Positions 1 to 54,099 of a stretch of 54,099 nt of DNA are shown piece by piece. The stretch's first letter is position 1. Each line of letters begins with the position of its first letter. The translations under genes were made by a program, and so were the position numbers. This DNA comes from a virus, in IMG/VR virus record IMGVR_UViG_3300006737_000043, positions 1 to 54,099 of that record; one strand, written 5' to 3'. The notes under the pieces were generated by a model. It searched no databases. It saw only the letters and a program-made list of their open reading frames with translations, and was not told the origin of the DNA.

Positions 1-1719
1 GGGGGACCTCACCAACCGGGTGAAGCAGTAGCTAATCCTCTTATTGGTATGGCTAATGCAGGAATCCCTCCTAGTCAATTAGACTTTGATAATGCTGACA
101 CAGTAACAAAAGAAAGGCTAGCAGCACTGTTCCCTAATACATATAAGATTAGTGCGGACACTCCTACATTAGAAGACTTAAGAATAGCTCAAGGATTGGA
201 CCCCACTAGTGGACTTCCGACATTAGAAACTTTACGAGGGGCTCAAGGTCTAGATCCTACTAGCGGACTTCCAACTTTTGAGACTTTGAAACCTGGTCGT
301 ATGAAAGCTATACAATCTAACCCGCCTATAAGTCAAGAACAATTTGACAATTTAGACCCGAGATTAAAGGCAGAGTATGCAGAAGCATTCCCAAATCTTT
401 ATAGGATCAGTGCAGATACTCCTACACTCGAGGAATTACAACAGTATACAAGTGGAAAAGTTGATCCCACAAGTGGGCTCCCTACACTAAGGGGAATCAA
501 TCAACCAGTAACTCAGGAACAGTTTGATATGTTAACTCCAGGGCAAAAACAAACCTATGTAGAGGCATTTCCTAATCGTTATAAAATAAGCGCAGATACT
601 CCAACGTTACAGGATTTACAGAACATGCAGGTAACAACGAAAGCTCATGGAGGCGCTTACCATAATGCACAAGGTCAGCCTGTAGATAAGGACGGTGTAC
701 TTCTACCTCCTGAACTGTTTCAAGGAACTAGAAGAACATTTGAATACCAGCCAGGTACTGATCTAGATTTTGCAAGTATAGGACCAGGCGGCACCCCCGA
801 TGACATACAAGTTATTAGTACAGATAGTATTATTAACAACCCTCAATTAAATGCTGGTCTTTTATCTTCTGCTAACGCGGATGCTGTATCTATGAGTGCT
901 GCTACTCCAATGGGACAAGGCTTAGACTCAGGGACGGTAACTGCTGCAGGAGATCAAGGAGATGACAATGGTGTTCCTGATCCAGTTGATGCTACTAGCG
1001 TTGATGCAGCAAATGCAGCACAAGTTATGGCAGGTCAAAAGGCAAACGTTGTTAAAGTTGAAACTAAAGTAAATGAAAAGACAGGGAAGAAAACAATTGT
1101 TAGAACTTATGATGACGGATCTACACAAGAGTTTAACATTCCAGAGGTAGATACACCTAAAGGACTGACAGCATTACAAGCTGCACCTATTGCTGCTAAT
1201 ATTGTGACATCAGCTATGCTACCAGAGAAGTTTAACTTTGCTAAGTATAGACTGCCTTTAGATGATAGTATTATAGAAAAAAGAGATATATCACCTGAGT
1301 TAAGAGATATAGAAAGAATGGTAGCCACAGGTAGAGGAGCTGTTAGTGGCAGAGCTACTAGTACTGCAGAGCTTCTAGTAGGACTTGCTAACCTAACTTC
1401 ATTAGGTATGGCTGAGACCGGTAAGATTAGAAATGAACAGTATACTGATTATATTGCACAGATACAAAATCAACAGCTTAGAAACCTAGAGATCTCATCT
1501 AGAAATGCAACTATGCAGGCGGAAGTAGATGCTGCAAATGCTAGTCTTGAAAAAGAAAGACTATCACTTATTAATGCAGCAGCAACAGAAGCAAGTAAAC
1601 TGGCTGATTCATTAAGACAAGAGGGACTGTCTAAGTACGAGCTAGAACAGATGTATCTAATGTATCCATATCTAGCAACTACTCAGCCTCAAAAAACTAC
1701 GGAGACCAATAAACCATAA
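1..1719 (+). CDS. Tandem-repeat virion-associated protein, 5' partial
   Basis: The frame is open from base 1 with no stop, so the first visible ATG at 49 is probably internal and the real start lies outside the window. The N-terminal third holds three imperfect repeats, each with a QEQFDxL-type helix, an AFPNxYxISADTPTL segment and an LDPTSGLPT segment, at about residues 10-190 counted from the ATG. The C-terminal half is helical and rich in Ala, Glu and Gln, with no signal peptide or membrane segment. It lies 10 bases upstream of another virion gene on the same strand. I do not recognise the family. Its place upstream of the RNAP genes suggests a tail or cargo structural protein, but this is inference. 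Confidence 0.8.
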   Translation, partial: GGPHQPGEAVANPLIGMANAGIPPSQLDFDNADTVTKERLAALFPNTYKISADTPTLEDLRIAQGLDPTSGLPTLETLRGAQGLDPTSGLPTFETLKPGRMKAIQSNPPISQEQFDNLDPRLKAEYAEAFPNLYRISADTPTLEELQQYTSGKVDPTSGLPTLRGINQPVTQEQFDMLTPGQKQTYVEAFPNRYKISADTPTLQDLQNMQVTTKAHGGAYHNAQGQPVDKDGVLLPPELFQGTRRTFEYQPGTDLDFASIGPGGTPDDIQVISTDSIINNPQLNAGLLSSANADAVSMSAATPMGQGLDSGTVTAAGDQGDDNGVPDPVDATSVDAANAAQVMAGQKANVVKVETKVNEKTGKKTIVRTYDDGSTQEFNIPEVDTPKGLTALQAAPIAANIVTSAMLPEKFNFAKYRLPLDDSIIEKRDISPELRDIERMVATGRGAVSGRATSTAELLVGLANLTSLGMAETGKIRNEQYTDYIAQIQNQQLRNLEISSRNATMQAEVDAANASLEKERLSLINAAATEASKLADSLRQEGLSKYELEQMYLMYPYLATTQPQKTTETNKP

Positions 1720-1729
1720 CAAAGAGCGA

Positions 1730-4700
1730 ATGGCAGATTTAACAACAAATGCGGTTACTCCTTCAGTAATCTCTTATACACCTTTAGACCTTAGTAGAGT
1801 ACAAGCTAGACTAGGATCAAAGGTACAAGAGGTTGAAGGGGCAGCTGCTGCAGGTAGAAATCTTATTTCAGCCTTAGACTTTAAGGATGGATATATGCTT
1901 GCGGGTCAAGCAAAAGATTTACAGAATGAATACTCTGGTAAAATACAGGGCTTAGTAGATGGCTTATATAATACAGGAGATACTAGATCATTTACGGCTG
2001 ACTTATCATTGTTATCTAATCAGATTAATACTGATGAACGTATTCTAGCAGGACAGAAAGACTTTGAACTATCAAAGGTCCATGATCAATATGGCATAGA
2101 TCCTACAAAAAGAGGATTCTATTATAAGTATACATCTGATAATAGTCCTACAGGAAACATTGCTGCAGCTGATTGGAAAAACCAAGACTACACTAGAGAT
2201 GATGTAAATAGCTTTTACCAGATCTTTCCCGAAGAAGATTTGTATAGAGATTACAATGATAAATTTGAGAACTTAAACACTGCAAAGTTTGAAGAGTTTA
2301 TGGGTATGGACCCAAATGGATTTCTTGTCTTTAAAACAACACAAGGTCCATCAGAGTTACCACAAACTATTGCAGATATTGTAGCAGCAGGAGGTACTCA
2401 AGCAGAAGCGGTTGCTGCGTATTTAAAGGAGACCAATGGGCCCCTCTATAGGGAACTTGCTAGTGATTATGATAAAGGAGGAAAAGACTCTGCTATTAAT
2501 TATAGGGATGGTCGAGGCATAGGAAGAGAGCAGTTCATAGGAGAAGTGGTTTTAGAAAATCTCCCGTACCTAGAAGATGTTTCATTTGATTTACAGACTC
2601 CAAGTGGCACAGGTTCAGGAGGAGGAGGAAACACTGTAAAGCCACCTGCAGTTACACCAGTGCAGACTGAAACACTAGCAACAGTTCTAGACCAAGGAGT
2701 AGCATCAGAACTATTAGAAGCAGGAGACTTAAGTATTAAGGACCTTACCTCAGTGCTAGGGTTTGGAGCTGATTCTCAGGGAACGACAGACATGATGACT
2801 ATCTTAGCTGACCCTGAAGCTAATAGACGAGATATCGCAAACGCAGGATATTATACTAGTATACTTGCAGACTGGAATGATAATGGAGATCCTACATACT
2901 CAAATGTATTTACAAATGGAAATGAGCTAAAAGCAGCAGCAGATGAAGCAACGTTAGAGCTATTAAACACTACCTTTGAAGCTACAAGGCGTGATCTTTC
3001 CCCTCAGTCAAATACCAGCTACCAACCTGCTGCAGGATTTGAAGGGGCACAAAAATCATTTATATCAGTTTACGGAGATATTATAGGAGATCAAGATCCT
3101 GTAGAATTTTTCCATAAGATTAGGAATACTAGAAACTTACTAGGCCAGTTTGATGCGAGTGGATTTAATCTAGAGAATAAAGATGAATTAATTTCAGCTT
3201 ATGATGGATACCTGCAGAACCCTTCTCTAGCAAATCAATTAACATTTGGAGTAGGCTTTTTATCGCCAGATGAGTTTGCGGCTGTACTTAATAGACAGGG
3301 AGAAGAGGCGTATACAGTACAGCTGACTGGACTTGATGGACAGTTCGAAGGGTACAGTAATCTTGGAGAGGCTTTAAATAGATATGAAAAAGCATCTAAT
3401 TACTTTATGGGAAACATTCGTCCAGTAGGCGCCCTTACTCCGGAGCTTCAACTGTATAATAAAATAAACAGAAATGCTCCTTTTCTAAATATGGAGGCTC
3501 AAATGTCTGAGCTAAGAGAGACTTCTCCTATTGCTTTTTATGAAGCAGCTAGGATAGATATTATGAATCGATCTCAGCTTTATCATACTGATGTTATATT
3601 ACAGCCTGGATCACTACAAAGAAGTGAGGGTATTATAGAAGAGGGCACAAAGCAATTCTCTGAAAGCTTAGCTCCTTCAATAGTAGACGGTGAGATTGGT
3701 GCTGACTTTGGGGCTAATTGGACAATATCTAAATTTCTAAAAACACCAACAGGAGGTGCAACAGGAATGAAAGACGCAGGTGTAGAAAGTCCAAGAGTTA
3801 GTATTATTAAAGGGGATGCAGTAATAGAGAGCCCTTACGAGGAGATGGATTTAACTGCAAGGAATACAACAGCTGTTCTTAAAAATTTTATTAACTCTTC
3901 ATCAGATAATACCGACGTTAATGAAGGGGCAGGAGACTTTATCTTCCAAGGCTTAATTGTACCTAATGGCCAAACAAGTGAGGTAGGATTAGTATTCTCT
4001 CATAGACAAGCGAATGGAGGAGTTGAAAGCTACATCTTTACACCTAAGAACCAAACAGCTTTAGAGAATAATCCTCTCGTACAGTCTATGGATCTTACTC
4101 AGAAAACACTTGCAGGTAAGCAATACTTACCTCAAGTTATGACCGGAGATGCGTATCTAGGAATGTATGGTGAGGAGATAAATAATATGCTTAGCGAGAA
4201 TGTAGATTTGTACGGCATTACTGCTGAGTACGTTTGGTCAGACACAAAAGCAAGCTTATCTAATACAGAACTTTTTAATCCACTCGAAACGTTTAGAGAT
4301 ACAGATGTTCCTAACCCATACTTTGACGGTAATACTTCAGTAGTAGCTGACATAGCAGGAGGTTCAGAAATATATAGATTTAGACGTAAAGATGGAACAG
4401 GGGATGTTAGATGGTCAGAGTACTTAGAAGGATTTGCAGAAAATCCTGATCTAGCCTCTACTTACCTAGGGGTATCAGATTATGAGGGCTTCTTAGTAAG
4501 TGTGTTGCTTAACAAAGATCAGATTAACGACGCTGGCGGAAACGTAACAGATGAGGCAATCATGGGACTATTACAAAGTACTACTATGCCTAACCTTAAG
4601 GGTATAAGTGAAGCCCTAGGTACAGAGTGGGGACTACTGACAAATATCCCGATTACATTTAATGATACCTCAGAAGCCTTCCACCATTTTGCAGGCCAGT

Positions 4701-4765
4701 CCAGTAGAGGACCTGATCGGGCAGGTAATCCGCGGTCCGGCTATTTTATCTCAACAAACCCGTAG
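1730..4765 (+). CDS. Large virion structural protein (1011 aa) ending at a frameshift site
   Basis: A 1011-residue protein with no recognised catalytic motif. It has a Ser/Gly-rich linker near residue 300 that may separate two domains, and no signal peptide or membrane segment. It starts 10 bases after the upstream stop and lies between the repeat protein and a peptidase-domain frame. The last sense codons, AAC CCG, form the slippery heptamer AAACCCG with the preceding A, and the TAG stop follows at once. A fraction of ribosomes could therefore continue in the -1 frame and add 196 residues carrying an M15-like peptidase domain (1207 aa in total). Position and size suggest a tail or ejection-machinery component. 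Function is inferred from context only. Confidence 0.85.
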   Translation: MADLTTNAVTPSVISYTPLDLSRVQARLGSKVQEVEGAAAAGRNLISALDFKDGYMLAGQAKDLQNEYSGKIQGLVDGLYNTGDTRSFTADLSLLSNQINTDERILAGQKDFELSKVHDQYGIDPTKRGFYYKYTSDNSPTGNIAAADWKNQDYTRDDVNSFYQIFPEEDLYRDYNDKFENLNTAKFEEFMGMDPNGFLVFKTTQGPSELPQTIADIVAAGGTQAEAVAAYLKETNGPLYRELASDYDKGGKDSAINYRDGRGIGREQFIGEVVLENLPYLEDVSFDLQTPSGTGSGGGGNTVKPPAVTPVQTETLATVLDQGVASELLEAGDLSIKDLTSVLGFGADSQGTTDMMTILADPEANRRDIANAGYYTSILADWNDNGDPTYSNVFTNGNELKAAADEATLELLNTTFEATRRDLSPQSNTSYQPAAGFEGAQKSFISVYGDIIGDQDPVEFFHKIRNTRNLLGQFDASGFNLENKDELISAYDGYLQNPSLANQLTFGVGFLSPDEFAAVLNRQGEEAYTVQLTGLDGQFEGYSNLGEALNRYEKASNYFMGNIRPVGALTPELQLYNKINRNAPFLNMEAQMSELRETSPIAFYEAARIDIMNRSQLYHTDVILQPGSLQRSEGIIEEGTKQFSESLAPSIVDGEIGADFGANWTISKFLKTPTGGATGMKDAGVESPRVSIIKGDAVIESPYEEMDLTARNTTAVLKNFINSSSDNTDVNEGAGDFIFQGLIVPNGQTSEVGLVFSHRQANGGVESYIFTPKNQTALENNPLVQSMDLTQKTLAGKQYLPQVMTGDAYLGMYGEEINNMLSENVDLYGITAEYVWSDTKASLSNTELFNPLETFRDTDVPNPYFDGNTSVVADIAGGSEIYRFRRKDGTGDVRWSEYLEGFAENPDLASTYLGVSDYEGFLVSVLLNKDQINDAGGNVTDEAIMGLLQSTTMPNLKGISEALGTEWGLLTNIPITFNDTSEAFHHFAGQSSRGPDRAGNPRSGYFISTNP

Positions 4766-4793
4766 AGGAGTCTGATTCAGCTGGCGATCAGAC
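4756..4793 (+). promoter_or_regulatory. Probable programmed -1 ribosomal frameshift signal
   Basis: The heptamer A AAC CCG lies at 4756-4762 in the correct phase for an X XXY YYZ -1 slip, directly followed by the zero-frame TAG. A 7-nt spacer (4763-4769) leads to a perfect 7-bp stem, 4770-4776 with 4787-4793, with a 10-nt loop. A second 5-bp hairpin lies at 4813-4817/4828-4832. The -1 frame has no stop from 4729 through 5349. Heptamer, spacer and stem match the classical -1 frameshift layout; use in vivo is inferred. Confidence 0.7.
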
Positions 4794-4845
4794 CAGGACC
4801 TCACAAGACCAGACGGGTAACTTCGAGCCCGTAACTTCATTCGAA

Positions 4846-5352
4846 ATGGCAGACTTTACTTTACCTGCTAGAAACTCAAATACAGTATTTAATCCTGCTG
4901 ACTTTGAAAACGCAGGTAAAGCTTGGGTATCTGCTAATGACCATACATTTGTAAATAATTCTGATTACTCTAATTTATTTTGGAGCACTGGTATTGAAAG
5001 AGCTCAACAGATCTACAATACAAACATAGTTAGCTTACCTGCAACTAATGAAGCAGGATTAAAAATACTAGATAAAGCAAACAGATGGAGTGCAGCTAAT
5101 GGCTTCAATGTAAGAGTAAGTAGTATGGCTAGACCACAAGCTGTTCAAGACTTTATGAGAGAACAGCCTAGAATGATGGGAACAGCTGCTGCTATGTCTA
5201 AGCATAGAGTAGGTGCTATCGATCTTGATTATGTTAGAAATTCGGACGGAAGTATTAATCAAGCTAAAACAAACGAGCTAAAAACATACCTTAAAAATTT
5301 CTATAAGGTTATTGATCATGCTGGCCATATTCATGTTTCTCCTAGAGTTTAA
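4846..5352 (+). CDS. M15-like peptidoglycan peptidase domain (possible frameshift extension)
   Basis: From the ATG this encodes 168 aa. Around residues 118-128 it reads SKHRVGAIDLD, close to the SxHxxGxAxD zinc site of M15 D-Ala-D-Ala carboxypeptidases and L-Ala-D-Glu peptidases but one residue shorter between His120 and the Asp. It ends with HAGHIHVS (residues 158-165), which matches the C-terminal zinc-ligand motif. A peptidoglycan-cutting role is therefore likely. There is no convincing ribosome binding site at this ATG. The same frame is open upstream through 4762, where a -1 slip would fuse it to the 1011-aa structural protein. As a minor fusion it would be a virion-borne lysin that opens the wall during DNA entry; as a free protein it could be an endolysin. 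Confidence 0.8.
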   Translation: MADFTLPARNSNTVFNPADFENAGKAWVSANDHTFVNNSDYSNLFWSTGIERAQQIYNTNIVSLPATNEAGLKILDKANRWSAANGFNVRVSSMARPQAVQDFMREQPRMMGTAAAMSKHRVGAIDLDYVRNSDGSINQAKTNELKTYLKNFYKVIDHAGHIHVSPRV

Positions 5353-5364: not shown

Positions 5365-8300
5365 ATGCCACAACATCCTACATCTTCTCTCCCTACTATA
5401 AATCAGGGAGATCCTTCTGATCTTACTAGACCTCCTAGGGGACAACAAGTTAAACTATTTGAATCAAAGATAACGCCGCCAAGTTTAGAGGGACCCCAGC
5501 TACCTGCCGGTATGGTCCAACTAGATAGAGCTCCTGGTCAAGTATTCAATAGAAACCCATTTAACTCAATTATTAATGCTCCTAAAATTACAGGAACTAC
5601 TGGGTGGCTTTTTGATATAACAAGGGCTCGAGCGGACAACAGGTATACAGCAGATCCTAATAATGCAATAGGAAACGTAGCAATAGGAGGAGTAAATGTA
5701 GCTGACCCAAGAAAGAGAGGACAGAAAAATCAACAGCAGTTCTTCAATGATAATATGAAGATCTGGGAGACAGGAGCAGATAGAGCTAGAAATGCATTAT
5801 TTGGAGGAGCTCTTCAGGGTATAAATAGAATTGGAGAGGATCTAGGAGGAATACTTGGAGGATCTTTCTGGGGAGAAGATTTTGAAAGAACTGCTATGGA
5901 GAGATACTTTGCTAATGCAAGGGGCACCTACGATCAGGCAGTAAAAATCTATGATGAAGATGCAAAGTTTTATCAAGGCCTACAAGCTGTTACTGCATCT
6001 ATAGTTGAGTTTGCACCAGTTGGAGGAGCAGTTAATAAGTTTTTTAAGTACGGAGGTAAAGCTGTAAAATATGTAGGAGCTGGTATTAAAACAGGACAGT
6101 GGACAAAGAGAGGTACGCAAGCTATTCAAGCTGCAAAAGTAGCTGGCCAAAGTACAAGAGTATCTTCACAAATTGCAGCAAACACTACTAAACTAGGAAA
6201 CTTTTTTAGAAAATATCAAAACCCTCTTAGCCAACTAGGTACTGCTGTACCTGCTGGTATTGTACAAAATAGAATTGAGGGAACTGCAATGGCGCTTCAG
6301 ACATATGAAGAAGTCCTTGACAAACTACAACCTGCTATTGCAAATGGTGACTTAACATATGAACAGGCAGCTAAGATAGCAGCACAAGAAGCACAAGGTG
6401 TTAGAGTTAAGAACCAAGCAATGATGGTCCAAGACATCTTTCAACATGCTACTTTGTTTAGAGCACGAGGACTAACAAGAACCGGATATCAGCGTCCTGG
6501 GTTTACTTGGAATCCAAAACAATATTTAAAGAATGCATTCCAAAGTAGAAAGTCACTATGGAATTATGGTACAAATAACTTCATTGTACAGGGAATAGGA
6601 GAGGCACTAGAAGAAGGATTCCAGTCTGGTATGCAACAAGATGCAGTAAGAAATGCACAGTTTGCTGCTAGAGATATTATAAGAAGAGATGGAGGAGATG
6701 TTACAACTATACCGGTTGATAACATAGGACTGGCTACAAAAAAGAATGTAGTAGACAGATACTTAGGATATATGTCTACTGATGATGCTAAGTTTGAGAT
6801 GGCTGTTGGTTTCTTTGCCGGTGCTGGACAAAGAATGGTTCAAAGCTATTCTGAGAAGATGTTTGATAACCGTGCTTATAGAAAACTAACTAACCAGATT
6901 GAAACTTTAAAGAGAGATTTACCTGCAGGAACGGATCAAGAGAAAGCTTATAAGCAACAGAAGATTGCTGAGTTAGAATATAAAAGAGCAGTTACTACAG
7001 AAAAAGGAAGAGCAGAGGCCGCTACAGAATTAATAAATACTCTTAAGTCAGATACTGCAAACTCAATTAAGTTTGCTATGGAAACTGATGATCTGATTGA
7101 GGCAGCAAGAGAGAAAGGATGGGGCCATATTGTTGAAGGTATGGAAAAAAATGCATTCTATAATCTATTTATGAAGCATGCAGCTAATGGTACAGTAGAT
7201 CAGTTAGAGAGACAGCTACAAGCCATTGCAGACGGTACTTCTACCTCAGCTGCTTTCCCAGAAGATGGCTCTCATCAGGAGAAAGCAACAGAGTTTTTAA
7301 ATGAACTAAACGAACTAGAAGCGGACTACTTAGCTCTTCAAGGTATGGAAGGCGCCCATAGGATTATGGGACTACAGTTTGCTGCAAAGACTAATCAACG
7401 AGTTGTAGACGGAGCACTGAAGGCTAGGACAAAAGCAAAACAAGATATCATTGATGATCTTAGAGCTTTATCTGGATCACAGGCTACAACTATCGAAGTA
7501 AACGAGGAGACCGGAGAGGTTAAGGTAACAGATAGTCTAGGAAGAAATGTACCTATATCTAGGAAATTACAAAAAGCAATTGAGTCATCAGATGCTTACA
7601 AGGCTATTTTTGATGAGGGAGGATTCAATGATCAGATTGATGCTATTAAAGATCGTGTAATAGAAGATAGAGCTAAGCTCTCTGATATGATTACACCTGC
7701 TGGTCAAAGTAAACTTAGGAAAGAAAGAATCGAGTTTGAGAAAAAGATTGAACAAGCTCGTAGAAAGGCTAAGCAGAAAGGACGTCGTCAGCGTAGAAAT
7801 GGAAAAACTCGAGGACAAAGAGATGCTTCTAATATAGATAATCAAAGAAGAAAAGCAGAGAACTCTCAATCGGAAGCTAGTGTTACAGGTGATACTGTTG
7901 AAAACGGGGCTACATTAGAAAATGACCCAGATAACTTACAACGTGAGGCAACTCCAGAGGCTACCATTGAGGAGCTAAAAGAGGCAGCACAGGGAACTGA
8001 ATCAGCTCCAGAGACAGATGTAAAGTCTGATGCTGAGATACAAGAAGAAGCTGACAAGGACTTTGACCCTGCGTTGGATAAGCCTGAGTATGGCTATACA
8101 AGAGGCACAACTTCTAATGTAAATAAAGTAGCTTCTCTATTAAGAGAGTGGAATGCATCAGTAAGTAACGGTATAGTTACAATTGATAACGCTGAGTTCA
8201 ACTTTATTGATGGCTATATGGCTCTTGCAGATCCTAGTAGGATACAAGAGGGAGACGTCCTAGAGTTTCAGATAGTAGAAAATGCTGATGAGTATGAGGT

Positions 8301-11300
8301 AACTGATGTAAGTGACCTAGACGAAACCAACCAAGGTAAGAAAAAAACAGTAAAAGAAGCTAGAGCTAATAAGAAAAGTTTAGCAGAACATGAATCTGAT
8401 GTATCTCAAACAGAGGTATCAGAGGATCAGATAGAAAATGATCTACAGCCTATAAAGATTATCCATGTATCAGCAGATGGTACTAGAACTGAAATAGGTT
8501 TTGTCCATAGCCCTCTATACCAACGAGAGGCTAGAACAACTAGATCTGCTGCAGAAATAGCACAGGATAAGCAAAAGCTTAGAGAATTCCGTGATAGGCT
8601 GCTAGCTGGCGAGGTTACACAAACTCGTATTTCTTCTATACAACCTGTAGTTTTAAACTATGTAGACTCTTCGCAAAGACAGACTACTAGAAATACATTC
8701 AGCGGAGTACTAGAGGGCCCTAGCGGTCAGTACCATATAGCTGTAGCTAGTGGAGACGGACAGCTATTTGTAAAAGGTGGAGCTAGTATTAAGTCTGTAA
8801 ACGGTATAGGCCGTAATAGTGTTATCGTAAACCAAGATAAAATTAAGGCAGGTCTAGCTTACGCAGTTGTACCTCTTAAGAAAGACAAGAATGGTAATAC
8901 ACATTACTATGCTGCTCCATTATTAACTAGAAACGTATCAGAGAATAACGTTGAGGTTATGATGACTGCAATTGATGCTTGGATTGCAGGTGAACAAGTC
9001 CCAGGTCTAAAGTCAAACATGACCGAAAGAGAGGTAAGAAATCTTAAGACCGTACTAAAAAGATTTATTAGAGTCCGTAATACAGATAGTCTGCCTCATA
9101 AACCAGGACAGACATACGTATATACAAAGGTAGAGGGAGGACGAGAGTTCTTAGTGTTTGGTAAAGTTCTTAGTGAGCCCTCAGAGGGCAACTCAGGAGT
9201 TTACGAAGTTACAGTTGAGAAGGGTGCCCCTCTAGCTACAGAGAATCAAGAGTTTATCAGACAGGTTTTAAAAGACCAAAAGTTAAATATAGACTTTGAT
9301 AGTGTAGAAAGTAATGAGCACTTCTTCTCAGTAATAACTGAAGGTAAGGTAGAGACTAATAAGAAAGCACTCATAGACCATGTTATGGACAGCACCTTAT
9401 CTACTATCGCTCCTATCAGAACAAATGAAGGTGCACTACCAAATGGTAAAGTTATATTCCACTATAATCCAGATGTTAGATATGGTGAAGGTATACCAGG
9501 ACTTTCGGAAGAAGATGCTCCTCCACTTAGAGCAGACGGTACTGGAGATCCTGAGCTTAAAGGTAGACGTGCTACAGAAGATACTGATGATGATGCTTTA
9601 CGAGCGCTAGCTGAAGCTGCAGGTATTACTGTAGAACAAGCTCAAGCAAATAGAGAAGATGCTGATCTGCTAGCAGAGGATGAAGACGCTGACTTTGATG
9701 ATACATTTGACGAAGATGATACTTTAGGCCTACTACCTGAAGCAGCTACAAATAGATCTGAAGAAACTAGGCAACAGTTTAGGGTACCTGATATTACTCC
9801 TGTTCAACAAGAACAGATTACTGATTTTATCGCATCTGATATTATAAAGAATATAAAAGTTATTCTTGCAACTACTAAGGTAGATAAGTCAGATGAACAA
9901 GCATTCTCAGAAGCAGTAGATGATAGCTATGCTCAAGTAGTAAGAAACTTAGAAGCCCTGGTAGCAAGAACATCAAAACGATTAGCGGCAACAAGAAAAC
10001 TAAAAGCAGGCGATACAGCAGCTATTACTAGGCTTGAGACTAGACTTAAGAAAGCTAATGAAACTTTAGAAGCGGTACGAAAGAGCGAAGATAAGATTAT
10101 TAATCTTTCGTTAACTAAACTAGAACAAAGATCAGGTGTAACTAAAAAGGCAAAACGAACTCAACAAGCGAGTCCAGCAGAACAGCAAACACGTAGCGCT
10201 GTAGATAAGCTATTTAGTTCCATATTCGGTAAAGACAAAACTTCAAAGATAGAAGATGCTGAGTCTGAGTCTGATGAAAATTCAGGTGAGTCAGCTCCAG
10301 GTATAAACAAGAGCTACCACTCTGACAACTTCTACTTTACTCTAGATCCTATAGATACCGCATCATCTCGACTAAGAGACTCTCTATCAACATTAGTTGA
10401 GCTAAATGAAAATGGGAATATATCAAAAACATTCTTTGGCTCTACTAAATATGCTGACCCCAACCAGGTGTTCAAGATTCTATCTACTGCTTTAGAGGGT
10501 ACTAATCCTATCTTCTCAGAGCAGATGGAAGCGTTGATGAGAAAGTATTTAGCAGATAGAGGATTTAGAAATAAAGCTTCTTGGCTACCTGCACTAGTAG
10601 TCACTGCTACAGAACTAGAAAGCTTAGAAGCTAGTCCCATAGGACAAAAGTTCTTAGAGACTATATTCCCTGATATGGATTCTAGAGCAGAGCAGATTAA
10701 AAGTCTAAGAGATCAGAAGATTAGTCCTCAGATTATTAATGAGTTCTCATCTGTTATGTCAAAGCATGCACTCATAGCTCCTATCATATCAATTCAAACA
10801 GGGTCAAATGGACAAGTGTATGTTAATGCATTTAGCCAGAACAGAAACTCACTTGTAAATATTGTAGGAGAAGAGTTTGATCTTGGTATGAGAGACAAAC
10901 TGTACCTATATGATTCTACCACAGGCGACTACGTTATTAATGAAGAGGCCTTTGATGAGGCTATAGCATATCTAACTAGTCTTGCTAATGCTGGAGGAAA
11001 TGTAAACATGGCTGAGTTTGGAGTTATGATGGAGACTAAGCTAGGTATCAAACTATCTGAAGATACTATAGAGTCTCTATTTGAAGACGGCATATACCTA
11101 CAGACATCTGCAATGGCTCGTAGAGTTAAGATGACTGATAATGGTATGTGGGGTAACTTCTCTCCATTTACTATTATGCGTGAGCATTTAGAAGCTATAA
11201 AGAACAAAGGCATAGCATATTCTACAAAAGGCCCTACAAACTTCGGTGCAATTAAAAGACTTGTTAATCTTGAAGCTAATAGATCAGAGGCTAAAAGACA

Positions 11301-14300
11301 TGGTACCACATTCTATGCAGGCGGTAGAAACATTGCTACTATGACATCTAATAAATACTTTAGTAATTTACTAGATGAGTTATTTACATTACAAGAAGAT
11401 CCTGAGAACCCAGAGTATGTAAATAAGATAGTAAATAAGGCCCATGCTTTATTTAATACTGTATTTGAGAGTCCTTCTCAACTACTAACAGCTATACAGC
11501 AAGAAGAGATATCACGAGAGGATTTAGAAATCCAATACCTAAACTTTAACCCTCTAAAGAAAGGTAGTGATAGATCTAATGACTTTAAAACTTTAAACGA
11601 AGCAGAGCATGCTGCCGTAAAGAACGGTCTTATGACTCACTCTACTAATATTAGTTCTAGAAACTTTACTACAAACTCAGGACATGTATTTAAACAGAGA
11701 CAGGCTACAATAGTACCGCTAACATTCTCTGATAAGGATACAGTAATGGCAGTTAAGACACTGGTGCCTATCATGAAGTTTGATGGTGTAGGTAACATAA
11801 CAAAGGAAACAGTATCTCTATTTGTTGACCATGTAGTAATGTCAGAGATAAATAGAATGCGAGCATTCGCCGCTGCTAATATTACAAAGGACTCTGCAGA
11901 TGAAGATGTTACACAGACTGATTTAAACAATCAAGCTTTTGAAGAGGGTGCGGATCTATTCTACATGTTCCCTCAGCTAAATAATGTTAGTGTAGAGTTT
12001 GAAGGAGAAACGTTACCTCTTAGAGAAGCAGCAGCTGTAGCAACTGATGAGCAGCTAGTTGAGCTTATGCCTAGAATTAATGACTCGGTAAGATCTATTC
12101 TTGATGCTATGATCGATGATAAGGTAGAAGCATTTGATTCTGGAGTAGAATTATACAGTGATATTCCTACAGCATATAAGAGTATGATTAGCTCTGAGAG
12201 TAAGATAGCTAATCCAACAGAAGAACAGCTAAAGAGGATGGTAGCCGCAGATATTACCCTTAACCAGGCGCTTGGAACAGCTAATATGATCCAAACTATG
12301 GTAGGAGATCCTGCTCAATATTACAAGGCTCCTAAGCTTGATCAGCTTGTTGATGAAAAAGCATACATAAATGCCGCAGTTCGTACTACCTACGAAAACT
12401 TAGATAAGAGACTTGCTGCATTGATTGCACCAGGTGTAGAACCTTCTAGACAATCAGACAATGAAGAGTACATTCAGCTTATGGTTCCTGATATTGAAAT
12501 GGACTATGACGCAGAATTCTTCGAAGGGTTGCCCGATGATGCTATAAATAACTTTAAAAACATCGAATCTACCGATGCCCAGGAGTTTATTACATGGAGA
12601 GAGTATCTAGATAATGCCATATCATTTGGTGAGATTACTCAGCAGACTGCAGATCAAGTAGCTACTTTAATTAATAAGTATAATAGAGGGTATGTGCTGA
12701 AGCCACAGGATAAAGAATTACTAAGCAAGGTAATGTTCAAGGCACAAAAGCCTGTCGGAGTTGCTGACCATTATACTACTCTAAATGCTACGGGACAGAC
12801 TGTAAGACAAAGAGCTTATATTAAAACATCTGCTGTACCATTACTACCTATGTTTACTAAAGGTACACAGCTAGATAACTTAAGAGTGGCAATGGAGACA
12901 TTCCAAGAAAACATGGGTACCAATGTAAGACTTACATTTAAGTCAGGGGCTAAAGTTGGATATCCTGCTGCTTCTAAGAATGCATCTCTAGTAAACGCAG
13001 ACGGTACAATCAAGACTGTAGAGGAACTTACAGCTGCATTCAAAGGCACTGAAGAAACAGGACGTCCTTACATCCGTGTTAAAAGAAAGTACTGGAGAAT
13101 ACAACAGTCTATACCTACTAAGACTAATGATAAATCAACAAGAGGTACACAGCCAGACGCTCTCATCGGAGGTGCTGCTAGCCAGGTAGATGCCCTTAAA
13201 CCATTAGTACAAAGTTTTAGTGATAACTCTAATAAACTATTTGAGCTTAGAGCTAATGAAATTAGAGAAGAGCTAATGGAGGATCACCCTGATCCAAATA
13301 ATAGTACTAAAGTTGTTAATAGAGAGAGATTAGGAGAGCTCCTACGTCAGGTAGCTTTTGATAGAGGCTTTGACTTCAATGTAGTTGAGGGTCTTACTAT
13401 CGGCGAAGACGGACAGTTTGAGATACCCGCAGAGCTATCACCTGCATCAGAGCAGTTCCAATCTATGCTGATGGCTATTGCTCGTAAAGGTGTAGCTAGA
13501 AAGAAAGTTACAGGCGGGTCTCAGGTCTTGATGTCTGAGTCTATGTTTAGATTCCAAGATGATATTAAGGAGGGTCGTTCTGAAGTTTTATATACAGATA
13601 AGTGGGAAGGCAGTCTGAAGCCAATGAGAATAGAAAATGGAGCTGTACAGCCTGCTCAGATCTTAGTACCTAATAAGTTTAGAACACCTAGTGGTAAGGT
13701 AATTAACTTTAGAAAGTATGTAAACTCTGAAGGTAGAATTGACTTATCTAAACTACCAGAGGGAGCTCTTGAAGGTATGGGATTCCGTATTCCTACTCAA
13801 GGCTATAACTCTATGGCAGTTGTAGAAGTTGTTGGATTCTTACCTGAGTATATGGGAGACATCGTAGTTGCTCCTAGATCATTCGTAGCACAGATGGGCT
13901 CTGACTTTGACGTTGATAAGCTGTATGACTACTTCTTTAAGATGGAAGAAACAGATGGAACGTTATCTAAAGTTACTGGAGAAGATGAACTAGGATTACA
14001 AAATGCAATACTTGAGGATAGAATTAGTATTCTAAAGAACACAGATGTATTCAATATGATCAAGAAGCCTCTTGACTTTGGATTACATACAGGTGTAAGT
14101 AATTACACTAATGAAGCTGACCCAGAGATGGCAGCTGAGATTAATGCCGCAGGTGGAATGGCTAATGCTATTGCAGCTAAGAAGGAGAAAAGAAGTAAGA
14201 CAAAAGGTGGCTTAATATCTGAGTACTACCAGAGAAAGAAATACCTAGAGGCAAGATCCGCAGCAGATGCGGTAGGTGTCAAGGCCACACTTAATGCTTT

Positions 14301-17300
14301 TGTAGGGGTAATATCATCTACAGATAAATCAATTGGATTACAAGAAGGATTTACATTTGGTAAGGAAGCACAAGTTGGAGCAATTGAAGGAGCTACTACA
14401 CTACGTGGTACTCGTCTAAAACAAGAAGTAGTATCTGGTACTCTATCAGCAGCGGTAGATAACCAGAAAGAACAGGTCATCAATAAGTATAATCTTAATA
14501 ACGAAACATTCGGTGTCCATAGTGCTCTAGAGCTCATGGGCTTTGAAGAAGACTTCACACAGTCATTCTTAGAGCAGCCTATTATTGTAGCAGTAGTAAA
14601 TCATGTACAAGAGAATGCATATGCTTCAATGGGTAGAATACTTAATGTTGCAATAGACGGCTTAATAACTGAGCACCTCAAAGACTCTGGGAGAAAGATT
14701 ACTGAGTTAACCAAGGAGGAGTATTTAACTGTAATGCAGGAAGTAGACCGTGTATTCGAAGCTGAGTTTGGAGATCTTACTATGGACGAGGTAGTAGCTA
14801 AACTATACAATAATATAGGTAAGGGGGTAAATAATACCTCTCCTCTACTAAATGCAGCTTTGCTTATGAAGTTTAAACAGGCTAGACAAATAATGTCTGA
14901 GATTAGACCTGTTATGCAGATCATGAGTGGAGATGCTAAAGGTGTTGGTTCTACACTTGCGGCCTTTATTGAAGAAACAGCAGCATCTGAGCAAGTAGTA
15001 GCAGGGCAACAACGAGCAGTACACAAAAGCTCACTACTAGGGCTACTGGGAACATATAGATTAGTAAGCTATCGTGATATTACTGGAGTAAATAAACTAC
15101 AAGAACAAGGATTTATTAGAGGACCTCTTACAAGTGAGGGCTATCTAATGGTTAAGCCTGATAGTGCAAAAGTTGCAGCATCTCTTCATACCTTCTCCCT
15201 TACTAATGACTTAGTTCTATCTGAGTTTAGTGGTCTATTCCAACTAACAAATAAAGTAGCAAGATCATCTTCAATGAGATCTATAGGTGTTGAGAATAAA
15301 AAATCTATTGGTCAGGGGATTAGAAGTTATCTTAACAGTAATCCAGAACTCTTTACTGAGAACGAAGTAACAACAACTTTAGATCAGCTACTATATCCAA
15401 GTGATACATCTGCTAGTTTAGCACAGATAGTAGATATTGCAAAGAATGATCCAAGACTTGCTAATAATAAATTCATACAGAACTTAGAAACAAGAACTGA
15501 TGCCGGACGTCCTCATACGTTAGCATTTAGAAACTCTGCAAGTGATGATATGGTTACTGACGGAGAGGCTGTTGCATTCTTAGACTTACTATTATCAAGC
15601 AGCACAAGGCCTATTAGAAACTCTAACCTAACTCCAAAGGAACTAGGTAGAAAGCTAATTGATTATGCATTCCTTACTGGAGGTACGAAGTCAGCGGTTG
15701 ATTTTGTAAGGTTTGTACCAACTAGTTATCTGATAGATATAGGGTTCTTCCAAAAATTAAAACAAGGATATAATTCTACAAAGACTGAAGAGTCTCACGG
15801 ACTATTAATACAAGAACAGCTCTTACAACATAACCCAGATATGGTTATGCATAGAGTTCGTCTAAGAGCACAGGGAGATGCAAAAGAAATTGTTGTTTTA
15901 AATAGAAAACAATCAGATGCTTCTAATGTTGTATTTGATCCTTCTAAAGAATTAATGGAAAAGGCAGGAATTCAGGTAGGAGATAAGAGTGTATTTGTAG
16001 TTGACCCTTCATATGAGTACATAGCAATTAAGCCGGCAGGAAAACCAAGAAGAGTATTAAAGTTTGATAGGTTCAGTGGTAAGTATGTAATGCTGGATAA
16101 CTTAGGCACAGGAACAATTAGTGAGTATAAATTTGGATCTGTTGGAACATCTAACATTGCTGAAAATACAGCAGCTCACTATCTAAGAACTACGGAAACT
16201 GGAGCTCCTGCTGTACAAGAAGGCGACCCTGGCTTTGCATTAGATGAACTAGATCCAGCAAGGCCTCTCCCAGAAGTAACAGGGCCTACTCTGCAAAGAG
16301 AAGCTACTGCTCCATCTAAAGTAGAAGACTTAAGACGAGCATTTAACAGACCTGAAGCGGCAGACCCTAATGCAGCTCCGTCTGATGATCTTAACGTAGC
16401 AGGATCTCCAGTAGATATGGAAGGAGAAAATGCTGTAGAAAATATACCAGAACCTACAGTAGAAGATCTATCAGAGTTATTTAATGCTGGATCTCCTACA
16501 GTCAAGCCTATTACTGCCACAGAGAGTGAGCAGGAACAGCTACCGTCTTTGGCTAATGTAAATACAAAGCTAAAGGAGAGTGCTATCTATTCTCCAACAG
16601 ATGCTGAAGTTATACAGATGTTACAAGAGATATCTCAAAGTTCTGATATGGCACATAAGTACTTAGCTATGGAGATACTAGACTCAGGCATCTTAAATAA
16701 AAAGAAATTTAAGATAGTATTTAAGCCTGGTAATGTTACTGATTCAACATTTACAAAGAGTAAGAATCAGGTAGTTATCAATGTAGATCCATCAACTAGC
16801 AACTGGAACTTTGAGCAAACATTCCTCCACGAGGTAGGCCATGCTTTAACAAGTCTTGAAATTAAAGCTTATCAAACTAATAAGAATAATTTAAGGAATA
16901 AAGCACTAGTAAAATCTTTGGATAAGCTAGACACTCTTCGTGAGTTATTCTTTAGAAAACTAGAATCTAAGAACCCTGATCTGATAGCAAACTTTTTATT
17001 ACTGACGTCCTCATACGAAAGCACTGACCCTGCTGCAGATAAGGAATTGAGAGATAAAATAGCTGTAATGCAAGCTGAAGGAGATCTAGAAGGCATACAA
17101 AAGCTTCTCTATGGAGCTTACGGAGCTACCAATCTAGATGAGTTTGTTACTATGGTTATGAGTAATCAGAACTTTAGAGACTTACTAGATAATACGGTTG
17201 ACTTTAATCTAACAGACGGTACTATTGATAAGAGCTTCCTGACTCAGATCATGGAGGTACTTAAGGATATGTTCCGCCAGGTCTTTGGACTTGAGCAAAG

Positions 17301-17997
17301 AAAGATATCTGACTATGCTCTAGAACAAGCAATGTTTGTAGCTAAGGAGAAGGCATATAGCCCAGCGCCGGTAGAGAAGTCGATGATAGTGAAAGTAAAT
17401 AATGTTCAATATGAGATAGACTCCTCTTCTAATGTTTATAAGATTGAGCCTACTAGAGTAACTACGGTTACAGACAAACAGCTACTACAGAAAATTGAGC
17501 TGAGGGCAGCACTACAGAAAGAAAACCTGAGCAAGGTCCGAGAAGGCGACAAGACATTCTATGTGTACGAAGGCTTTAACCGAATCAAGGTAGCATCAAT
17601 AAGTCCAAAAGGTATTGTAACTGCCATCACTGGTAAGGAGGCTGACGCAGTAATCGCTAAAGCATTCAAGAACTCTGACAGTATCATTACAGGAGAAAAA
17701 ACTACTTCTCCTACTCAAGAAATACAATATGACAACAACACTTATGTTGTGGATATTGATAGTCGTACAATTACAAATAAAAAGACTGGTAAAGTAATTG
17801 TTGCTACATCTCCAATTGGAACAGCAGTAATGAATCAGGTAGATTTTGATACATTAGAAGAAAGCGATACCAATCGTTTACTACCTTTGCAAGGAACTGT
17901 AAGTGAGTTCTTACGAGAGCTACAACCTGCAGAAAGAAAACTATTTAACAAGCTAGCTAGCGAGGGACAGCTAAAAACAATTTGTAAGACAGTATGA
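5365..17997 (+). CDS. Giant virion RNA polymerase / zincin multidomain protein (4210 aa)
   Basis: One 4210-residue frame. Residues 2847-2852 read DFDVDK within MGSDFDVDKLYDYFF, the DxDxD metal-binding signature of the crAss-like virion RNAP, a single-chain enzyme with two double-psi beta-barrels. Residues 3822-3826 are HEVGH, a zincin metalloprotease motif known from giant crAss-like proteins. Residues 780-950 are charged and low in complexity and probably form a linker or coiled coil; another acidic linker lies near 1420-1470. In phi14:2 the RNAP chain is about half this length, so neighbouring cargo proteins appear fused here. In that phage the RNAP enters the cell with the DNA and transcribes early genes. 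The gene has its own -7 box, and its stop overlaps the next start. Confidence 0.88.
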   Translation: MPQHPTSSLPTINQGDPSDLTRPPRGQQVKLFESKITPPSLEGPQLPAGMVQLDRAPGQVFNRNPFNSIINAPKITGTTGWLFDITRARADNRYTADPNNAIGNVAIGGVNVADPRKRGQKNQQQFFNDNMKIWETGADRARNALFGGALQGINRIGEDLGGILGGSFWGEDFERTAMERYFANARGTYDQAVKIYDEDAKFYQGLQAVTASIVEFAPVGGAVNKFFKYGGKAVKYVGAGIKTGQWTKRGTQAIQAAKVAGQSTRVSSQIAANTTKLGNFFRKYQNPLSQLGTAVPAGIVQNRIEGTAMALQTYEEVLDKLQPAIANGDLTYEQAAKIAAQEAQGVRVKNQAMMVQDIFQHATLFRARGLTRTGYQRPGFTWNPKQYLKNAFQSRKSLWNYGTNNFIVQGIGEALEEGFQSGMQQDAVRNAQFAARDIIRRDGGDVTTIPVDNIGLATKKNVVDRYLGYMSTDDAKFEMAVGFFAGAGQRMVQSYSEKMFDNRAYRKLTNQIETLKRDLPAGTDQEKAYKQQKIAELEYKRAVTTEKGRAEAATELINTLKSDTANSIKFAMETDDLIEAAREKGWGHIVEGMEKNAFYNLFMKHAANGTVDQLERQLQAIADGTSTSAAFPEDGSHQEKATEFLNELNELEADYLALQGMEGAHRIMGLQFAAKTNQRVVDGALKARTKAKQDIIDDLRALSGSQATTIEVNEETGEVKVTDSLGRNVPISRKLQKAIESSDAYKAIFDEGGFNDQIDAIKDRVIEDRAKLSDMITPAGQSKLRKERIEFEKKIEQARRKAKQKGRRQRRNGKTRGQRDASNIDNQRRKAENSQSEASVTGDTVENGATLENDPDNLQREATPEATIEELKEAAQGTESAPETDVKSDAEIQEEADKDFDPALDKPEYGYTRGTTSNVNKVASLLREWNASVSNGIVTIDNAEFNFIDGYMALADPSRIQEGDVLEFQIVENADEYEVTDVSDLDETNQGKKKTVKEARANKKSLAEHESDVSQTEVSEDQIENDLQPIKIIHVSADGTRTEIGFVHSPLYQREARTTRSAAEIAQDKQKLREFRDRLLAGEVTQTRISSIQPVVLNYVDSSQRQTTRNTFSGVLEGPSGQYHIAVASGDGQLFVKGGASIKSVNGIGRNSVIVNQDKIKAGLAYAVVPLKKDKNGNTHYYAAPLLTRNVSENNVEVMMTAIDAWIAGEQVPGLKSNMTEREVRNLKTVLKRFIRVRNTDSLPHKPGQTYVYTKVEGGREFLVFGKVLSEPSEGNSGVYEVTVEKGAPLATENQEFIRQVLKDQKLNIDFDSVESNEHFFSVITEGKVETNKKALIDHVMDSTLSTIAPIRTNEGALPNGKVIFHYNPDVRYGEGIPGLSEEDAPPLRADGTGDPELKGRRATEDTDDDALRALAEAAGITVEQAQANREDADLLAEDEDADFDDTFDEDDTLGLLPEAATNRSEETRQQFRVPDITPVQQEQITDFIASDIIKNIKVILATTKVDKSDEQAFSEAVDDSYAQVVRNLEALVARTSKRLAATRKLKAGDTAAITRLETRLKKANETLEAVRKSEDKIINLSLTKLEQRSGVTKKAKRTQQASPAEQQTRSAVDKLFSSIFGKDKTSKIEDAESESDENSGESAPGINKSYHSDNFYFTLDPIDTASSRLRDSLSTLVELNENGNISKTFFGSTKYADPNQVFKILSTALEGTNPIFSEQMEALMRKYLADRGFRNKASWLPALVVTATELESLEASPIGQKFLETIFPDMDSRAEQIKSLRDQKISPQIINEFSSVMSKHALIAPIISIQTGSNGQVYVNAFSQNRNSLVNIVGEEFDLGMRDKLYLYDSTTGDYVINEEAFDEAIAYLTSLANAGGNVNMAEFGVMMETKLGIKLSEDTIESLFEDGIYLQTSAMARRVKMTDNGMWGNFSPFTIMREHLEAIKNKGIAYSTKGPTNFGAIKRLVNLEANRSEAKRHGTTFYAGGRNIATMTSNKYFSNLLDELFTLQEDPENPEYVNKIVNKAHALFNTVFESPSQLLTAIQQEEISREDLEIQYLNFNPLKKGSDRSNDFKTLNEAEHAAVKNGLMTHSTNISSRNFTTNSGHVFKQRQATIVPLTFSDKDTVMAVKTLVPIMKFDGVGNITKETVSLFVDHVVMSEINRMRAFAAANITKDSADEDVTQTDLNNQAFEEGADLFYMFPQLNNVSVEFEGETLPLREAAAVATDEQLVELMPRINDSVRSILDAMIDDKVEAFDSGVELYSDIPTAYKSMISSESKIANPTEEQLKRMVAADITLNQALGTANMIQTMVGDPAQYYKAPKLDQLVDEKAYINAAVRTTYENLDKRLAALIAPGVEPSRQSDNEEYIQLMVPDIEMDYDAEFFEGLPDDAINNFKNIESTDAQEFITWREYLDNAISFGEITQQTADQVATLINKYNRGYVLKPQDKELLSKVMFKAQKPVGVADHYTTLNATGQTVRQRAYIKTSAVPLLPMFTKGTQLDNLRVAMETFQENMGTNVRLTFKSGAKVGYPAASKNASLVNADGTIKTVEELTAAFKGTEETGRPYIRVKRKYWRIQQSIPTKTNDKSTRGTQPDALIGGAASQVDALKPLVQSFSDNSNKLFELRANEIREELMEDHPDPNNSTKVVNRERLGELLRQVAFDRGFDFNVVEGLTIGEDGQFEIPAELSPASEQFQSMLMAIARKGVARKKVTGGSQVLMSESMFRFQDDIKEGRSEVLYTDKWEGSLKPMRIENGAVQPAQILVPNKFRTPSGKVINFRKYVNSEGRIDLSKLPEGALEGMGFRIPTQGYNSMAVVEVVGFLPEYMGDIVVAPRSFVAQMGSDFDVDKLYDYFFKMEETDGTLSKVTGEDELGLQNAILEDRISILKNTDVFNMIKKPLDFGLHTGVSNYTNEADPEMAAEINAAGGMANAIAAKKEKRSKTKGGLISEYYQRKKYLEARSAADAVGVKATLNAFVGVISSTDKSIGLQEGFTFGKEAQVGAIEGATTLRGTRLKQEVVSGTLSAAVDNQKEQVINKYNLNNETFGVHSALELMGFEEDFTQSFLEQPIIVAVVNHVQENAYASMGRILNVAIDGLITEHLKDSGRKITELTKEEYLTVMQEVDRVFEAEFGDLTMDEVVAKLYNNIGKGVNNTSPLLNAALLMKFKQARQIMSEIRPVMQIMSGDAKGVGSTLAAFIEETAASEQVVAGQQRAVHKSSLLGLLGTYRLVSYRDITGVNKLQEQGFIRGPLTSEGYLMVKPDSAKVAASLHTFSLTNDLVLSEFSGLFQLTNKVARSSSMRSIGVENKKSIGQGIRSYLNSNPELFTENEVTTTLDQLLYPSDTSASLAQIVDIAKNDPRLANNKFIQNLETRTDAGRPHTLAFRNSASDDMVTDGEAVAFLDLLLSSSTRPIRNSNLTPKELGRKLIDYAFLTGGTKSAVDFVRFVPTSYLIDIGFFQKLKQGYNSTKTEESHGLLIQEQLLQHNPDMVMHRVRLRAQGDAKEIVVLNRKQSDASNVVFDPSKELMEKAGIQVGDKSVFVVDPSYEYIAIKPAGKPRRVLKFDRFSGKYVMLDNLGTGTISEYKFGSVGTSNIAENTAAHYLRTTETGAPAVQEGDPGFALDELDPARPLPEVTGPTLQREATAPSKVEDLRRAFNRPEAADPNAAPSDDLNVAGSPVDMEGENAVENIPEPTVEDLSELFNAGSPTVKPITATESEQEQLPSLANVNTKLKESAIYSPTDAEVIQMLQEISQSSDMAHKYLAMEILDSGILNKKKFKIVFKPGNVTDSTFTKSKNQVVINVDPSTSNWNFEQTFLHEVGHALTSLEIKAYQTNKNNLRNKALVKSLDKLDTLRELFFRKLESKNPDLIANFLLLTSSYESTDPAADKELRDKIAVMQAEGDLEGIQKLLYGAYGATNLDEFVTMVMSNQNFRDLLDNTVDFNLTDGTIDKSFLTQIMEVLKDMFRQVFGLEQRKISDYALEQAMFVAKEKAYSPAPVEKSMIVKVNNVQYEIDSSSNVYKIEPTRVTTVTDKQLLQKIELRAALQKENLSKVREGDKTFYVYEGFNRIKVASISPKGIVTAITGKEADAVIAKAFKNSDSIITGEKTTSPTQEIQYDNNTYVVDIDSRTITNKKTGKVIVATSPIGTAVMNQVDFDTLEESDTNRLLPLQGTVSEFLRELQPAERKLFNKLASEGQLKTICKTV

Positions 17998-25777: not shown

Positions 25778-25785
25778 CAAATTTA
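25778..25785 (-). promoter_or_regulatory. -7 box TAAATTTG before the holin
   Basis: TAAATTTG fits the Bacteroidota TAnnTTTG consensus and ends 5 bases before the holin ATG, inside the 3' end of the UDG gene. No good -33 element is visible. The arrangement implies a near-leaderless holin transcript. Confidence 0.45.
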
Positions 25786-26466
25786 CCACAAAATACGGAA
25801 TTCTGCACCATTTGCAGCTTCTAATATCTCATTAGCTTCATTAAAGTTAGAGCACTCCCAACGTATTCCTTTATAGTTAGCGTACACAGGATGTACAGAT
25901 TCTAATACAGTGCAACCTTTTAACAAAGGTTTATAAGCTTTTGCATGTCCACCCCAAAGCATAAAGATACAGTCGGGTCTCCATTCAGCTATAGTCTTAA
26001 GGACACCTTCTGTAAACTTCTTCCAATACTTACTATGAGATCCAGCCATACCCTTCTCTACGGTAAGAGCTGTATTAAGCATAAGAACTCCTTGTTTAGT
26101 CCAACGAGTAAGACTGTGGTCGAAGATAAGATCTGTGTGATTAATATCTCCATATGCAAATACATCTTCAATCTTACGTAAAGATGGACTAGGTGATAGA
26201 TTATCAAAATCTATTTCATTAGCAAAAGCTAGACCAGTAGCCCTACCATCATGGTATGGGTCTTGGCCTATAATAACTACACGCAAGTCTTTCCAAGGCG
26301 TCTCTCTAAATGCACGAAATACATTAGGTTTAGCAGGATAGACAGTTTTATTTCTATATTCTTCGTTAAGCTTATCAAGAAGCTTATCAGCATAGCTAGA
26401 AGAAAGAAGGTCAGCTAAATTAGCCGACCATCCATCTCCTAGTTGCCTCTTCCAAAAATCATTCAT
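25783..26466 (-). CDS. ung: Uracil-DNA glycosylase, family 1
   Basis: A 227-aa UDG, the usual family length, from the ATG at 26466; an in-frame ATG at 26481 is also possible. The catalytic water-activating motif GQDPYH is at residues 68-73, followed by DGRATGLAFAN. MLNTALTVEKGMAGSH matches the uracil-recognition strand, and SVHPVYANYKG is the HPS-loop equivalent with its catalytic His. It removes uracil from DNA and is part of the conserved crAss-like replication set. It overlaps the upstream gene by a few bases. Confidence 0.95.
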   Translation of the reverse strand: MNDFWKRQLGDGWSANLADLLSSSYADKLLDKLNEEYRNKTVYPAKPNVFRAFRETPWKDLRVVIIGQDPYHDGRATGLAFANEIDFDNLSPSPSLRKIEDVFAYGDINHTDLIFDHSLTRWTKQGVLMLNTALTVEKGMAGSHSKYWKKFTEGVLKTIAEWRPDCIFMLWGGHAKAYKPLLKGCTVLESVHPVYANYKGIRWECSNFNEANEILEAANGAEFRILW

Positions 26467-53968: not shown

Positions 53969-54031
53969 GGAAAAACCATAGACCTTGAGAAAATCTGTGA
54001 AAACCTATTAGAAATTTTGTGATTAGTATAT

Positions 54032-54039
54032 TAATTTTG
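54032..54039 (+). promoter_or_regulatory. -7 box TAATTTTG before the next late gene
   Basis: TAATTTTG followed by TAA and ATG (54043) repeats the arrangement seen at 5353 and 43308. The ATG opens a 7-codon frame (MNKKSYG, stop) that overlaps the ATG of the next gene at 54059. Confidence 0.45.
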
Positions 54040-54058
54040 TAAATGAATAAAAAGAGCT

Positions 54059-54099
54059 ATGGCTAAAAATCCATTTGAAGGAGTACAATTGGTAACACC
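54059..54099 (+). CDS. Start of the next late gene, 3' partial
   Basis: An open frame MAKNPFEGVQLVT runs to the window end. In crAss-like genomes the genes after the portal encode head proteins including the major capsid protein, so this could be one of them, but 13 residues do not show it. The ATG overlaps the stop of a 7-codon leader frame. Confidence 0.5.
   Translation, partial: MAKNPFEGVQLVT

Follow-up and report, generated by a model that had tools for sequence, protein, structure and literature searches.

A putative −1 frameshift would extend a crAss-like phage cargo protein with a peptidoglycan peptidase-like domain

The IMG/VR virus record IMGVR_UViG_3300006737_000043, analysed here over its whole length of 54,099 bases (the window), carries an open reading frame (ORF) of 1011 amino acids, ORF B, which ends at a slippery sequence and overlaps, in the −1 frame, an ORF with a predicted wall peptidase domain. 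We propose that, through a programmed −1 frameshift, a small share of the copies of a C2/gp46-like ejected cargo protein acquire a wall hydrolase, a reading to which we assign a probability of about 0.85. The slip site, the open frame, the coding signal, the fold, a layout conserved in three lineages and the swapping of hydrolases were all computed here. An earlier, sequence-only reading of the window had proposed such a shift onto an M15-like domain, and this proposal gains support from two distant, independent relatives, each with its own heptamer, and from in-frame fusions in others. The junction comprises the following features; names consisting of L and a number denote relatives.

1730-4765, plus strand: ORF B, 1011 amino acids, the zero frame and frameshift donor; likely a crAss C2/gp46-type ejected cargo protein, judged by its place immediately 5' of the virion RNA polymerase gene and a weak profile match
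4756-4762, plus strand: slippery heptamer A_AAC_CCG in zero-frame phase, abutting the stop; the counterparts G_GGA_AAT in L007/L087 and G_GGA_AAG in L020 also abut a stop
4763-4765, plus strand: TAG stop of the zero frame, the next codon after the slip site
4729-5352, plus strand: −1-frame ORF, continuing at GTA 4762 after the slip; open frame with coding-like codon usage from the slip site on
4762-4845, plus strand: 28-codon polar linker VEESDSAGDQTRTSQDQTGNFEPVTSFE, reached by frameshift only, coding-like in the −1 frame and upstream of the first ATG
4765-4802, plus strand: predicted stimulatory stem-loop, 4770-4777/4786-4793 within 4765-4768/4799-4802 (RNAfold)
4846-5349, plus strand: predicted M15-like peptidoglycan peptidase domain, 168 amino acids (structure model, Foldseek and identity to the L191 domain)
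5197-5223, plus strand: putative zinc-site segment SKHRVGAID with H-x5-D (alignment A4 and spacing comparison)
5326-5334, plus strand: HIH, matching the HxH zinc-ligand motif; H161 and H163 are invariant in alignment A4

The zero-frame codons at the end of ORF B read ACA (4754), AAC (4757), CCG (4760) and TAG (4763-4765), with the heptamer in phase and touching the stop, as the earlier reading had noted. The last upstream stop of the −1 frame lies at 4726-4728, and from 4729 the frame is open, as claimed, into the M15-like domain and on to the stop ending at 5352. This ORF is open for 207 codons and has native codon usage. The fused product would have 1207 amino acids (1011 + 196), in agreement with the length given before, and its predicted junction peptide is STNPVEESDSAGDQTR. 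Scored by codon usage, the linker has a log-likelihood ratio (LLR) of +9.7 in the −1 frame versus −8.9 and +1.4 in the other two frames, and only 1 of 1412 off-frame windows scored as high or higher.

Downstream of the heptamer, the perfect 7-bp stem described earlier (GTCTGAT at 4770-4776, ATCAGAC at 4787-4793) can be read from the sequence after a spacer of 7 nucleotides (4763-4769), and RNAfold extends it by a U·G pair (4777/4786) and an outer 4-bp GAGG/CCUC stem (4765-4768/4799-4802). The minimum free energy of 50 nucleotides at the junction is −13.1 kcal/mol. In stability, the 40 nucleotides past the heptamer exceed 98.8% of the sliding windows taken from the same region. Ranked in this way within each locus, the stretch of the window is in the top 1.2%, that of L007 in the top 0.2% and that of L020 in the top 1.2% (combined Fisher p ~4e-5).

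The −1 ORF is predicted to encode a VanX/Hedgehog (M15-like) fold. An AlphaFold2 model of the domain, built from a six-row alignment, reached a predicted local distance difference test score of 79.8 and a predicted template modelling score of 0.80. In Foldseek, its best Protein Data Bank match was VanX (1r44; E=4.4e-4, probability 1.0), followed by Hedgehog, LdcB and Ply500, all of one fold. The domain is 37% identical to the in-frame C-terminal domain of L191, and the Ser, His and Asp of the zinc site as well as the HxH motif are all present. The M15 alignment A4 was too diverse for use in scanning.

Many relatives were reached, solely through scans with the core of the virion RNA polymerase (RNAP), and the regions upstream of their RNAP genes were surveyed. 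The survey included 171 distinct junctions whose −1 frame extends 60 codons or more beyond a stop. Among them, a heptamer that abuts the stop and has no ATG nearby occurs in three places, namely the window, L007/L087 (the same phage) and L020, and each of these ends the ORF immediately upstream of the virion RNAP gene. At most of the remaining junctions an ATG overlaps the stop or follows it closely, as in ordinary coupled genes. The 1015-amino-acid ORF of L007/L087 ends in G_GGA_AAT followed by TAA, and the same-position ORF of L020 in G_GGA_AAG followed by TAG; GGGAAAG is highly shift-prone in E. coli (PMC5009743). In L007 and L020, both a stem and coding-like −1-frame codons directly follow the heptamer. 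The first 28 codons past the slip have −1-frame LLRs of 9.7 (window), 13.2 (L007) and 10.8 (L020), matched by at most 1 of 800-1412 off-frame windows at each of the three loci. They lie upstream of any ATG, wholly in the window and L007 and for the first 18 codons in L020, so that internal initiation is hard to invoke.

As a chance baseline we took the 702 other ORF ends in these loci (ORFs of at least 200 amino acids). An in-phase heptamer abutting the stop was found at 8 of them (about 1%), compared with three of three here, which at the baseline rate has a chance of 1.5e-6; counting heptamers at any position of the overlap raises this to 1.4e-4. The earlier claim that slip site, spacer and structure together exceed chance is supported by the abutting heptamer and by the stability of the following 40 nucleotides among sliding windows; taken alone, the window's structure is not exceptional against shuffles (z=−1.36). 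Two further ends were set aside as looking like ordinary gene starts: in the crAss-like contig L168 (AAACCCG abutting TGA, L168:708-717) an in-frame ATG lies 8 nucleotides past the stop, which suggests an ordinary start, though this end may be a second frameshift site, and at the L195 junction (TTTAAAC before TAA) an ATG overlaps or just follows the stop.

The predicted hydrolase class attached varies between phages. The −1 ORF of L020 contains Peptidase_M15_3 above the cut-off, and that of L007 a CHAP-like TIGR02594 domain (E=1.2e-15), unrelated to M15, behind a long Pro/Glu linker. In seven other relatives (L022/L092, L191/L252, L193, L195, L217, L230 and L331), the protein at this position carries M15 or VanY at its C-terminus in frame, and the L193 domain passes the cut-off of the VanY model. 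In a Pfam scan of 85 C-termini at this position, Peptidase_M15_3 and VanY were the only recurrent families. L252, which is of the L191 type and full-length, is placed by its profile match in the Fpv1 gp32/phi14:2 g068 family (E=5.6e-9). In the comparison called for by the sequence-only reading, the heptamer and stem layout recurs in L007/L087 and L020, while the seven fusions are uninterrupted, which that reading had named as a refuting outcome. They do not refute a shift, since in other relatives the break persists and a slip site accompanies it. Judging from the relatives, attaching a wall hydrolase to the protein encoded before the RNAP seems to be a recurrent solution, with frameshifting one way to limit its dose. 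More broadly, crAss-like phages probably carry an interchangeable wall-cutting module (M15, VanY or CHAP-like) at one genomic site, on the C-terminus of an ejected cargo protein, the dose being set either by fusion (every copy) or by −1 frameshift (few copies).

Searches with ORF B and the −1 ORF as single proteins in phages, IMG/VR and genome contigs gave no match, nor did a scan of genome contigs with the RNAP core. Searches by tblastn with L252, L230 and L087 ORF1 against annotated phages also found nothing, so this layout is not known from any isolate of that collection.

ORF B is likely a C2/gp46-type ejected cargo protein. The terminase of the record resembles its counterpart in Cellulophaga phage phi14:2 (33% identity over 97% of the length), and the 4210-amino-acid ORF directly downstream of the frameshift locus matches the virion RNAP genes of phi14:2 and Flavobacterium phage Fpv1 (tblastn). 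The order of the truncated upstream ORF A, ORF B, RNAP and a 1416-amino-acid ORF equals that of Fpv1 gp31-gp34 and parallels crAss001 gp45-gp47. On these sequence grounds (related terminase, giant virion RNAP and crAss gene order), the phage is crAss-like (Crassvirales). ORF B sits directly upstream of the virion RNAP gene, as do Fpv1 gp32, phi14:2 g068 and crAss001 gp46. The crAss001 proteins gp45 and gp46 are the cargo proteins C1 and C2, which were found in virions by mass spectrometry and for which an ejection channel was proposed (PMC10172136); phi14:2 g068 is listed as a virion protein on the basis of tandem mass spectrometry. The extension had earlier been seen as a wall-cutting tip on a virion protein. 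Its carrier is better read as ejected cargo of the C2/gp46 type than as a tail tip.

From these data we infer the slip itself, its efficiency, the packaging of the product into virions and its catalysis, and we picture them as follows. A minority of the ribosomes translating ORF B would pause at the TAG and the stem-loop while decoding AAC and CCG; the two tRNAs would slip back by one base to pair with AAA and CCC, from where translation would go on in the −1 frame. The output would be the 1207-residue protein, composed of ejected cargo protein, polar linker and M15-like peptidoglycan peptidase, with most copies remaining at 1011 amino acids. On infection, the cargo proteins would leave the virion through the tail, and those few copies that are extended may cut the peptide stems of the thin cell wall locally, which would let the channel, the RNA polymerase and the DNA cross.

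Several observations weigh against this model. The heptamer A_AAC_CCG is not a classical strong bacterial site and is expected to be weak in E. coli, where C_CCG as a tetramer shifts 1.8-3.6-fold above background and A_AAC_CCA fails outright (PMC4066793). Compared with shuffled sequences, the window stem is modest (21 of 200 shuffles equally stable) and that of L020 not significant (z=−0.73). As the window structure is unexceptional by this measure, the case rests mainly on the comparative evidence, and all three split loci are single metagenomic contigs. The zinc site has H-x5-D, compared with H-x6-D in six relatives, and so misses the SxH-x6-D spacing by one residue, as had been pointed out before; the activity of the window's own domain is therefore uncertain. 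No M15-type Pfam model scored above the cut-off for this domain, the only match being DUF5715 below it (E=0.013). Finally, ORF B matched the cargo family at E=0.0029 in one of five profile search iterations and was absent in the last, hhalign gave E=0.028, and the value for L087 was E=0.068. BLASTP of ORF B against L087 ORF1 returned colinear scraps only (E=0.14), and no sequence similarity of ORF B to crAss001 gp46 was detected. Given these weak matches, the C2/gp46 assignment rests on position.

The M15-like enzyme could be a separate gene, expressed by re-initiation or internal initiation and requiring no frameshift. The in-frame ATG at 4846, 81 nucleotides past the stop, would yield a compact 168-residue domain, another point in disfavour of a shift. 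We regard such a gene as unlikely, however: codon usage from the stop up to this ATG is coding-like in the −1 frame, the residue aligned with the ATG lies inside the in-frame L191 protein (FEMADF versus FAIDDF), and the sole ATG of L007 lies past the catalytic-Cys motif, with only a GTG before the Cys. Moreover, seven relatives encode the fusion as one ORF, and the heptamers would be left unexplained.

Those same uninterrupted fusions would fit a sequencing or assembly indel in a truly continuous gene, and no second contig spanning the window junction was found. Yet this is very unlikely, since in three independent contigs the break falls between cargo and hydrolase, in each case exactly at a stop after a phase-correct heptamer (with the chance given above), and long homopolymers are absent near 4756-4765. 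A genuine frameshift mutation, which would have severed the M15 domain from the cargo protein and left it as a decaying relic, could account for the shortened zinc motif. It is nonetheless highly improbable in view of the length and native codon usage of the −1 ORF, the retention of the fold and the other ligands, and the coincidence of the break with a heptamer in three lineages. Recoding of TAG and TGA is documented in Crassvirales (PMC10136315), so extension of ORF B by stop-codon readthrough was considered as well. Its probability is negligible: the L007 stop is TAA, L020 has a second stop six codons on, and we rejected TAG readthrough as a route to the M15 domain in the window, as the zero frame continues for only 22 more codons before a TAA and at no point joins the M15 frame.

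The proposed −1 frameshift has known counterparts. C-terminal domains added by frameshifting to phage structural proteins are chiefly immunoglobulin (Ig)-like (T3 gene 10, phage A2, Listeria phages; Fraser et al. 2006, reviewed in PMC5009743), and the scattered in-frame and out-of-frame Ig-like versions were attributed to domain movement (PMC5009743). The present locus is similar in that a share of a phage structural protein would gain a C-terminal domain and that both versions are scattered among relatives. It differs in that the addition is a predicted enzyme, of two unrelated hydrolase classes, and is carried not by a subunit of the capsid or tail but by a putative ejected cargo protein.

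As in lambda G/GT, the −1 slip would occur near the end of the upstream ORF, and the lambda heptamer, GGGAAAG, is identical to that of L020. Lambda gpG and gpGT are assembly chaperones that are not in the mature virion (PMC5009743), whereas the product proposed here is expected inside it and carries an enzyme. Like the gene for crAss001 C2, for which a channel or ejection role was proposed, ORF B directly precedes an RNA polymerase cargo gene; unlike at the present locus, neither a hydrolase extension nor a frameshift is described for gp46 (PMC10172136). The domain resembles M15 enzymes, VanX/VanY and phage endolysins such as Ply500 in predicted fold and in the SxH...D...HxH pattern, and departs from them in its zinc spacing and in being encoded as a frameshift extension of a putative virion protein. 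No precedent for a frameshift-encoded virion wall hydrolase was found in the literature searched, which mostly excluded subscription journals.

The text of the crAss001 virion atlas does not mention peptidoglycan (PMC10172136). For the way in which crAss-like phages breach this layer, the locus offers a candidate, an enzyme on ejected cargo in sub-stoichiometric copies. If true, frameshift-controlled domain dosage in virions would extend from binding domains to enzymes. Together with its relatives, the locus also contributes three candidate slip sites that are probably decoded by Bacteroidota ribosomes. To our knowledge, few slip sites have been characterised for these ribosomes.

Two neighbouring features complete the region.

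1-1719, plus strand: ORF A, a structural or cargo gene preceding ORF B and cut off by the start of the contig; positioned as crAss001 gp45 and Fpv1 gp31
5365-17997, plus strand: giant virion RNAP ORF, 4210 amino acids, the syntenic anchor; matches the catalytic RNAP genes of Fpv1 and phi14:2 and has the motif GSDFDVDK

ORF A has a weak match to PHROG 279 'tail sheath' (E=4e-4). Its N-terminal part (window 49-700) contains the repeated segments YKISADTPTLEDLR and LDPTSGLPTLETLRGAQG, and no tandem array was found there at the DNA level. The C-terminal part of the RNAP ORF (15001-17994) contains FLHEVGHAL, an HExxH zinc-protease-like motif, and no Pfam family was found for this part. In one clade of relatives (L010:9327-9803, L011, L017, L027, L204, L210, L211, L215, L216 and L222), a conserved ORF of ~160 amino acids lies between a large upstream ORF, of more than 2500 amino acids where complete, and the RNAP core ORF, so that the giant polymerase-region gene appears split there.

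The contig begins inside ORF A (1-49) and ends just past the portal gene (53968-54099); the capsid and most tail genes expected in between are therefore missing from the record. A DUF1287 protein (43627-44286, minus strand; Pfam E=2.1e-24) has a hydrophobic N-terminus resembling a signal peptide. It might be a second wall-active or lysis protein, in which case lysis would not have to rely on the M15 domain. The phage also encodes a uracil-DNA glycosylase (25783-26481, minus strand; Pfam E=2.1e-14), which is annotated in phi14:2 too.
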